A DNA stretch of 37,232 nucleotides from Deltaproteobacteria bacterium (GTDB lineage Bacteria; Desulfobacterota; GWC2-55-46), in contig JACRCC010000023.1 in the NCBI GenBank assembly GCA_016234405.1, positions 1 to 37,232 of the forward strand, given 5' to 3'. Position 1 is the first letter of the stretch. Each line of letters opens with the position of its first letter. This document shows positions 1 to 4,319 of this stretch, piece by piece. The notes beneath the pieces are model-generated. The model had not been told where the DNA came from and made no database searches. It was given only the letters and a program-made list of their open reading frames with translations. Position numbers and translations under genes: made by a program.

Positions 1-104
1 ACAGACTTTGTTTCCCCTGCGAACAGAGGGTTTGCGGCGACAAAAGCGATGACGAATAATACAAGCACGACGGATACCGCCTTCATAACATGCAGCGTCT
101 TCAT
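1..104 (-). CDS. merP: Probable MerP, N-terminal end only (runs off window)
   Basis: Only the first 34 codons are inside the window. They start at an ATG on the minus strand (102-104), preceded by AAGGAGGA (111-118) at 6 nt, an excellent ribosome binding site. The visible peptide begins MKTLHVMKAVSV, continues as a hydrophobic stretch and reaches a likely signal-peptidase site near residues 24-29 (ANPLFAG), so it is an exported protein. The name rests on position: it lies 60 nt downstream of merT in a mercury operon, where MerP, the periplasmic Hg(II)-binding partner of MerT, is expected. The diagnostic heavy-metal motif GMTCxxC would lie beyond the edge, so another periplasmic protein is not excluded. 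Confidence 0.6.
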   Translation of the reverse strand, partial: MKTLHVMKAVSVVLVLFVIAFVAANPLFAGETKS

Positions 105-164: not shown

Positions 165-512
165 TCAGTCCAGCAACCATGCCGCCAAGTACGGAAAGCT
201 GAATCCAAATACGGCAAACCCTACGAGCACCCAGAACAATATCCTGTTGATCCTCCTTGCCGACGGGTTACAGGCGCCGTCAGGCCCGCAGTTGGAAGCC
301 TTGCCATAGGCGTATCGATAGGCTATGCCCCCTAATACGATAGTCAGGAGAACGAAATACGGCCTCAGCCACTCGAATCTTGAAAGGAAACCAAGGCCCG
401 TTATGCCGAATGCGAGGAATAAGGCAGGACCGATACAGCAGGCAGAGGCCAGAAGGGCCGTGAGCATGCCCCCGATGTAAACCGATATTCTATCCTTTCT
501 CCTTTCCTTCAT
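165..512 (-). CDS. merT: Mercuric ion transporter MerT
   Basis: A 115-residue inner-membrane protein that brings Hg(II) from the periplasm to the cytoplasm. Three hydrophobic segments are visible (about residues 13-35, 51-66 and 90-112). The first holds the vicinal cysteine pair C25-C26 in SACCIGPALF, the MerT hallmark. The loop after the second segment holds a second pair, C75 and C81 (NCGPDGAC), which in MerT faces the cytoplasm and hands mercury on. Length is typical for the family (about 116). The start codon overlaps the stop of the upstream Cys-rich ORF as ATGA (509-512), which suggests translational coupling within a merR-orf-merT-merP operon. Confidence 0.93.
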   Translation of the reverse strand: MKERRKDRISVYIGGMLTALLASACCIGPALFLAFGITGLGFLSRFEWLRPYFVLLTIVLGGIAYRYAYGKASNCGPDGACNPSARRINRILFWVLVGFAVFGFSFPYLAAWLLD

Positions 513-724
513 AACCCTGCCTTCGGAAGCCTGCTTTTCGATGGGCTCTCAACATCCTCACAAATCACAACGGTAGCGGGGCATCCGCAGTTCTCCTCTG
601 GATATAATGAAGTCCTTTCACACTCTTCACATATATCCTTTATTGAAATCTCCCTGCATATCCCGGATATATTGGTTGAATGCAGGGCATTATTCCCGGT
701 GACCATTCTTTTCTTCTCTGACAT
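509..724 (-). CDS. Small cysteine-rich protein between merR and merT, function unknown
   Basis: A 71-residue ORF starting 6 nt after the merR stop and overlapping the merT start by 4 nt, so it sits as a regular cistron of the mer operon. A GAGGTG ribosome-binding-like sequence lies in the end of merR, about 8 nt before its ATG. It has six cysteines, C23, C32, C35, C46, C48 and C55, in the order C-x8-C-x2-C-x10-C-x-C-x6-C (core DICEEC and ENCGCPATVVIC). It shows no signal peptide and no membrane segment, so it should be cytoplasmic. I do not recognise the family; it is not MerC, MerE, MerF or MerD. Cysteine pairs next to a mercury transporter suggest a metal-binding or metal-handover protein, but that is inference. 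Spacing on both sides argues that it is translated. Confidence 0.65.
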   Translation of the reverse strand: MSEKKRMVTGNNALHSTNISGICREISIKDICEECERTSLYPEENCGCPATVVICEDVESPSKSRLPKAGL

Positions 725-730
725 AGCCTT

Positions 731-1138
731 TCACCTCTCTTCTTCTATCGCCTTTAATATCGGGCATTCTTCCGTGGGCCGGCGTCTGTTGCAACATTCA
801 ACGAGCTCATTCAGGACTTTCCTGAGCGACTCAAGGCCCCTTATTTTCCGTTCCACCGTCGTCAGTTTGTCATTAACCTTTTTCTGCGCCTTCCCGCACG
901 CGGAAGCCGATTCGACCCTCAGATCCAGAAGGCCTTTTATTTCACGGAGGGTAAAGCCGAGTTCTTTCGAACGGCGTATGAACTTAAGCCTCTTTAACGC
1001 CTTTTCGTCATAGACCCTGTAGCCCGAGTCCTTCCTGCCAGAAGGTAAAAGGAGTTTCTGCCGCTCGTAATACCTGACGGTCTGCACGCTAACCTCCGCC
1101 CTGCGAGCCAGTTCCCCGATCGGAAACAATCTTTCCAT
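731..1138 (-). CDS. merR: Mercury-responsive MerR transcriptional regulator
   Basis: 135 residues. The N-terminal winged helix-turn-helix (about residues 4-72) carries the MerR-family signature VQTVRYYERQKLL. A dimerisation helix follows, then a C-terminal metal loop. The cysteines C81, C116 and C125 have the same 35- and 9-residue spacing as the three Hg(II) ligands of the Tn501 MerR (82, 117, 126), which separates a true mercury sensor from ZntR, CueR or CadR. C115 forms an adjacent pair with C116. The ATG at 1136-1138 has a GGGAGGT ribosome binding site 5 nt upstream. It is transcribed in the same direction as merT, as in some mer operons, not divergently, so the regulator controls its own operon from the operator at 1161-1192. 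Confidence 0.95.
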   Translation of the reverse strand: MERLFPIGELARRAEVSVQTVRYYERQKLLLPSGRKDSGYRVYDEKALKRLKFIRRSKELGFTLREIKGLLDLRVESASACGKAQKKVNDKLTTVERKIRGLESLRKVLNELVECCNRRRPTEECPILKAIEEER

Positions 1139-1160: not shown

Positions 1161-1192
1161 AGTATACACTCTATACTATACTATAGAGTCAA
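1161..1192 (-). promoter_or_regulatory. mer promoter with MerR operator
   Basis: Read on the minus strand, a -35 box TTGACT (1187-1192) and a -10 box TATACT (1161-1166) are separated by 20 nt. This over-long spacer is typical of promoters that MerR-family proteins activate by twisting the DNA. The spacer is occupied by a 22-bp operator, 1168-1189, with perfect 8-bp arms ACTCTATA and TATAGAGT around a 6-nt centre. The arms match the MerR/CadR/PbrR operator pattern. The box lies 22 nt before the merR start and should drive merR-orf71-merT-merP. Confidence 0.93.
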
Positions 1193-3576: not shown

Positions 3577-4319
3577 TCAAGCACACTCGTACCGCACGAC
3601 GCCCACGGCCGTTATGGCCGAGGTCTCGACGCGCAGGATGCGCGGCCCGAGGCTTACGGGGACAAACCCGGCGGCCTTTGCGGCCTCCATCTCGTCTTCC
3701 TCGAACCCACCCTCGGGGCCGGACAGGATACAGACTCCTCTTTGCAGTTTCTCCCTTTCAACTGAAATAATTTTTTTAAGACTCGGAAGCCCAACCCTTT
3801 TCCAGAGCGCGATCTTGACAGCCGCTTCCGATGAAAACCCAATCGCCCCTTCAAAACTTGTATGGTCCAAGACCTGCGGTATGGTCGCCCGTCTGCACTG
3901 CTTGGCGGCCTTCAAGGCAACGTCCCGCCATCTGTGGGATTTTTTCTGTTTGGCTTCGCGTTCTTCGAGGGATGCGGATTTGGCGGATTTGAAGGGAACG
4001 ATGCGATCTACGCCGAGTCTGTCGTTTTTTGTATTATAAGCTCCATCCGCTCCTTGTCGGGCATGGCCTGAAGGAGCGTTATGTCGGGCTGCTCGCCCCC
4101 GGACGCCAACATGTCCTCGAAGACCAAAAGCTCGGCGCTGCCATTCTTAATCTTAATCACCCGCGCGCGGAAAAGCCCGCCTTTGGCGTCAGCGACGGTT
4201 ACGGCCTCACCGGGCCGAAGCCGCCGCAGCAAAAGCGCGTCAAAGGCAGTCCCTTTGACGACGCGGCTTTCGTTGAGGCTCACATCGCCTTCGAGCGACA
4301 CCTTACCCATGCAGCGCAT
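3577..4319 (-). pseudogene. rsmE: 16S rRNA m3U1498 methyltransferase RsmE, interrupted by a frameshift
   Basis: RsmE methylates U1498 of 16S rRNA from S-adenosylmethionine and belongs to the SPOUT (knotted) superfamily. Two pieces in different frames make up the gene. The N-terminal piece, 4319 down to about 4018, is the PUA-like substrate domain (RRLRPGEAVTVADAKGG), ends in ERMELIIQKTT and then meets a TAG (4008-4010). The C-terminal piece, readable from 4017 to 3577 as LGVDRIVPF..., contains the knot motifs GPEGGF and LGPRILRVETSA. Adding one base between 4018 and 4017 (GAxCTC instead of GACTC) restores a continuous protein of about 247 residues, a normal RsmE length, with the expected TTELGVD at the join. 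Either a real 1-nt deletion or a sequencing/assembly error. Confidence 0.88.

Follow-up and report, generated by a model that had tools for sequence, protein, structure and literature searches.

The 37,232-nt stretch of Deltaproteobacteria bacterium DNA analysed here (the window; assembly GCA_016234405.1, contig JACRCC010000023.1) carries between merR and merT a genuine gene for a six-cysteine protein of 71 amino acids (509-724, minus strand, coordinates including the stop), which is best called a new, rare accessory of a known mer system. The product may be a MerR-controlled cytosolic thiolate metal-site protein that serves as an Hg(II) acceptor or buffer beside MerT, a reading to which we give a probability of about 0.45; metal binding, the metal bound, the partner and the direction of transfer are what we infer from sequence comparison and gene context. 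In the mer literature searched, no description of the protein was found.

The ORF and its translation (ATG at 724, stop ending at 509) give the product MSEKKRMVTGNNALHSTNISGICREISIKDICEECERTSLYPEENCGCPATVVICEDVESPSKSRLPKAGL. A preliminary description had reported a 71-residue ORF between merR and merT, which was confirmed and, the strand having been absent from that account, assigned to the minus strand; its 6-nt gap from merR and the ATGA shared by the TGA stop and the merT ATG (509-512) both proved exact, as did, in a pattern check of the window copy, the cysteine spacing C-x8-C-x2-C-x10-C-x-C-x6-C. A clear ribosome-binding sequence (GAGGTG) precedes the ATG. The product contains no hydrophobic stretch (maximum 19-residue Kyte-Doolittle value 0.37) and shows no recognisable signal peptide, so that the earlier label 'cytoplasmic' is reasonable for a protein predicted to be soluble. 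Cysteine-richness alone is weak evidence for a gene, since among the window's 179 stop-to-stop frames spanning 60-110 codons there are 6 with at least six cysteines; six cysteines being not unusual at such a frame length, the reality of the ORF must be decided by conservation.

A scan with one genome per species produced a relative with 73% identity over 71 residues at L003:1886-2104 (plus strand), L003 being a 3.5-kb contig of a Nitrospirae groundwater MAG with the gene order merA < > merR - ORF - merT - merP - thioredoxin-like. Scanning of the 63 genomes of the window's class yielded a further relative, 43% identical, at L021:1513-1707 (minus strand) in G309, a genome of the same family as the window genome, in the order merR - ORF - merT - AhpD/CMD-like protein. 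The AhpD/CMD-like protein 3' of merT in G309 (L021:815-1159, minus strand) has a CEPC motif and a terminal CC pair. The ORF occupies the merR-merT slot in all three known members, with the ATGA overlap in two (window and L003) and a gap of about 10 nt before merT in L021. A conserved link to merT had been named beforehand as something that would support a role, and the link holds in 3/3 genomes having the ORF, a small sample of three members only, one of them from a 3.5-kb MAG contig. Carriers thus amount to 2 of the 63 genomes of the window's class and one genome outside it; no further clear members were found in the window's phylum (about 395 genomes scanned), or in the order (176 genomes) and the phylum (about 395 genomes) of the L003 genome, and the plasmid and viral-contig collections held no relatives. 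One match in genome G220 (E 0.006, two stops) was rejected as spurious, lying antisense to another gene.

The closest other MerT proteins (L005-L007) are 64-70% identical to that of the window. In L006 merR runs directly into merT and in L005 the ORF is likewise missing, while the L007 contig ends inside merT, leaving the upstream slot out of view. As these close mer operons (L005, L006) are without it, the ORF is an optional accessory of a rare mer-operon variant and, given that operons with 69-70% identical MerT do without the gene, is not involved in MerT function in general. In L005 (genome G090) the slot is filled by a gene for a seven-cysteine thioredoxin-like protein (L005:1167-1424, plus strand), a relative of which is found 3' of merP in L003. 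The window and L003 genomes appear to belong to different classes, since the order of L003 (176 genomes) is larger than the whole class of the window (63); their MerR and MerT proteins are nevertheless 84% and 88% identical, respectively, pointing either to transfer of the cassette between lineages or to mis-binning of the 3.5-kb L003 contig.

The core of the ORF is under strong purifying selection: over 35-36 codons, window and L003 differ at 3, 2 and 14 sites in codon positions 1, 2 and 3, respectively (dN 0.056, dS 1.84). Between the same two copies dN/dS is 0.27 for the whole ORF, 0.12 for merT and 0.21 for merR, and the N-terminal 20 residues of the product vary freely. Because dN lies far below dS in the core, and because the third genome keeps the frame, the place and four cysteines, the ORF is more than a chance frame. 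The G309 core reads CGEISVKDVTADCEKATLYPEENCGQPTSYTVCEE; in the three-sequence alignment C23, C35, C46 and C55 are invariant, and the G309 copy has T in place of C32 and Q in place of C48. The conserved signature is therefore not the six-cysteine pattern but C-x11-C-x10-C-x8-C, with E25-I-S-x-K-D and L-Y-P-E-E-N-C-G-x-P. The preliminary description had tied its proposal to conservation of cysteines and reading frame in related operons, and this was borne out for the frame and four of the cysteines, and not for C32 and C48, neither of which survives in the most divergent copy.

Downstream of the ORF, merT (165-512, minus strand) encodes a mercuric transport protein of 115 aa (PF02411, 62.9 bits against a cut-off of 32.9; NF010314, 70 bits, under its strict cut-off) whose TM1 contains CC and whose loop contains C-x5-C. 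It is followed by the 5' part of merP, covering the signal peptide region (1-104, minus strand, start at 3-104; 82% identity to residues 4-37 of the L003 MerP), which is truncated by the contig end, window base 1 being the end of contig C94. Upstream, the merR-type regulator gene (731-1138, minus strand; Pfam MerR_1, 71 bits) has cysteines at the Hg(II)-MerR positions (SACGK; ECCN...EEC). Its product scored alike against the TIGR02051 MerR (120 bits) and ZntR (129 bits) models, in both cases below the NCBIfam cut-offs, so that the regulator is MerR-type with a metal not settled by family model, and the mercury assignment of the operon rests on merT and merP in the window and on merA in L003. 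MerR-family promoters are recognised by a dyad between hexamers with a 19-20 bp spacer. Such a promoter lies upstream of merR (1161-1192, minus strand; -35 TTGACT at 1187-1192, -10 TATACT at 1161-1166, 20-bp spacer), and between its hexamers sits a merO-like operator, the perfect 22-bp dyad ACTCTATA-n6-TATAGAGT (1168-1189; sole match in the window, 0 expected), which is also present in L003. The 20-bp-spacer pattern recurs upstream of merR at L003:1405-1436 (plus strand) and L021:2147-2178 (minus strand), with hexamers and spacing identical in L003 and slightly changed in L021. With this promoter and dyad upstream of merR, the small protein is most likely encoded second, after merR, in a transcript under MerR control. 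The host system has what marks a mer operon, namely a MerR-type regulator with a 20-bp-spacer promoter and the transport genes merT and merP.

Sequence searches of Pfam, NCBIfam, PHROG and PDB gave no match for the ORF product, in keeping with the earlier statement that it falls outside the standard mer accessories (Pfam, NCBIfam). Like MerC, MerE, MerF, MerG, MerH and MerD, it is specified by an optional gene beside merR/merT; unlike them, it has no transmembrane segment and no match to their families. As a small thiol protein of a mer system it resembles the Hg(II) carriers MerP and NmerA (HMA, PF00403), from which it differs in having no GMTCxxC, no PF00403 match and no signal peptide. The TRASH spacing is C-x19-22-C-x3-C, which is absent from all three members, as is a Pfam match. 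The mer accessories recorded in published surveys are merT, P, C, F, E, G, H, B and D together with archaeal TRASH genes; stand-alone TRASH proteins have been reported from archaeal mer operons only (PMC3466566). Those of Sulfolobus mer operons are likewise small and cysteine-containing and have been proposed to act in Hg trafficking (PMC3466566), and the ORF product may work like them despite failing their cysteine spacing. CopZ-type [2Fe-2S] (BFD-like) proteins are also cysteine-rich and mer-linked, a CopZ-like protein with 12 cysteines being encoded 3' of merP in G090 (L005:2146-2607, plus strand). Proteins of the BFD/CopZ [2Fe-2S] class are recognised by CxC ... CxnC together with a profile match; homology to them, prompted by a C-x2-[IV]-[ST] stretch followed by a helix, was rejected (hhalign probability 0.2%, E 0.26), and CxxC/CxxC motifs are not present in the ORF product.

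The only distant similarity of the ORF product was to the zinc finger at the C terminus of TtuA-type tRNA thiolases, whose zinc is held between two CxxC motifs (PMC3980101). A three-sequence profile matched such fingers in six genomes of the phylum of the L003 genome (E 3.5e-6 to 9e-4 per genome), with DRATLHPCEECGQPTSATICSYC aligned against CEKATLYPEENCGQPTSYTVCEE. The one matched protein tested has the TtuA N-terminal LIM domain and a finger matching TtuA crystal entries. Shared features are an L-[HY]-P-x3-C-G-[QC]-P-[TA]-x4-C stretch and an identical C-x8-C spacing of the inner cysteines. In hmmsearch the match scored 30.2 bits and none of 150 cysteine-preserving column shuffles exceeded 10.9, for a comparison picked post hoc, and hhalign gave a probability of 96% for a comparison selected after a search of several hundred genomes. 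On these grounds the protein could be a zinc-ribbon-derived mini-domain with a structural Zn(II) on its cysteines, serving MerT or MerR, for instance, as an adaptor and not as a mercury carrier; we regard this as a possible, if doubtful, explanation. Unlike the TtuA finger, the ORF product keeps only the inner cysteine of each CxxC knuckle, so that half of the zinc ligands are missing, is not attached to a PP-loop enzyme and has a different genomic context; with the outer cysteines of both knuckles replaced, formation of the TtuA zinc site in its original form is not possible. Nor is the predicted fold a ribbon: AlphaFold2 with two-sequence alignments returned a beta-alpha-beta sketch at pLDDT 56-57, too weak for a fold search, in which, at this low confidence, strands 1 and 2 carry C23 and C55, respectively, the helix carries C32 and C35, and a loop carries C46 and C48. 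Zinc-ribbon ancestry with an altered ligand set, as distinct from membership of the TtuA-finger family, is possible. As an origin for the ORF, no TtuA of this type was found in the host genomes, in a search run without a positive control.

The constant position immediately 3' of merR in the same transcript could also reflect a regulatory protein, MerD-like in role, which would modulate MerR or sense cytosolic Hg(II). This seems unlikely, as the product neither contains a DNA-binding domain nor resembles MerD (Pfam, NCBIfam), and the tie to merT is as close as that to merR. More improbable still is a leader ORF with the sole role of setting the merT level by translational coupling: the ATGA overlap in 2/3 members, the merT ribosome-binding sequence inside the ORF and the nearly identical 3'-end DNA of window and L003 would fit it, but purifying selection acts at the amino-acid level and is concentrated in the cysteine core rather than at the junction, L021 has its gap in place of the overlap, and L005 and L006 have merT without the ORF. 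A spurious or decaying ORF, suggested by the cysteine-rich frames elsewhere in the window and by the absence of the ORF from most mer operons, is largely refuted by the finding that three genomes retain the frame, its location and the core, dN being much lower than dS.

A role as an Hg(II) acceptor is favoured by the conserved merT-linked slot, the four invariant cysteines, purifying selection, the MerR promoter and the lack of a membrane segment. The neighbouring genes merT, merP and merA and that for the thioredoxin-like protein all encode thiol proteins of the Hg-handling kind. The established cytosolic Hg carriers rely on CxxC or vicinal cysteines. Against the acceptor role stand the L021 copy, in which neither CxxC nor vicinal cysteines occur, the two variable cysteines of the six, the operons L005 and L006 without the ORF, the low-confidence fold and the sample of only three members. 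Under the acceptor reading, the four conserved cysteines of the cytoplasmic mini-protein would form a thiolate metal site; Hg(II) would first reach the C-x5-C cysteines of the MerT cytoplasmic loop and would then move by thiol exchange to the Cys4 core. Where MerA exists, as in L003, Hg(II) would be handed on to the MerA N-terminal HMA domain, and where none was found, as in the window genome and G309, the protein would hold Hg(II) as a buffer. Exchange of Zn at the inner side of MerT may be an alternative.

The L003 MerA, a fragment, has an HMA domain. No MerA above the TIGR02053 cut-off was found in the window genome (G000) or in G309; for the former, absence of merA is not proven, G000 being 97.8% complete and merP running off the contig. 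The earlier suggestion that the protein replaces a cytosolic step is thus ambiguous: the L003 operon has an HMA-bearing MerA, and in the two other genomes none was found over the cut-off. Upstream of merR the window and L003 are similar in DNA as far as about base 1310, near the point at which the L003 merA starts, so that the window operon either lost merA or never had it upstream of merR; a merA past the contig end is possible. A response-regulator/PilZ gene (1394-2179) stands in the window where L003 has merA. Further along, a gene for an RsmE-type 16S rRNA methyltransferase (3577-4319, minus strand) is split across separate ORFs (PUA part 4008-4319, methyltransferase part 3577-3915) by a real frameshift or an assembly error. 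G309 encodes HgcA, the mercury methylation corrinoid protein (L057, G309:C31:17641-18609; 408 bits, cut-off 275), and no HgcA was found in the window genome. A stretch of G309 (L054:6475-11611, plus strand), on the same contig, encodes a multi-CxxCH protein, an inorganic-anion permease, an ArsM-like methyltransferase and a MerA-like flavoprotein, the last scoring below the MerA cut-off.

In the usual account, the acceptors of Hg(II) from MerT are the MerA HMA domain or cellular thiols. If real, an acceptor devoted to this task in the cytosol and co-expressed with MerT would be a new step in Hg(II) passage, and its occurrence without detected MerA, once together with HgcA, would raise the question of the purpose of imported Hg(II) in these organisms. 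The broader proposition, that the protein is a new kind of carrier or sink for mercury in the bacterial cytosol, distinct from both HMA and TRASH proteins, enabling MerT uptake without mercuric reductase, including in the hgcA-carrying relative, is rather unlikely. Should the protein prove to be merely a structural zinc protein, it would still be a previously unnamed mer accessory.
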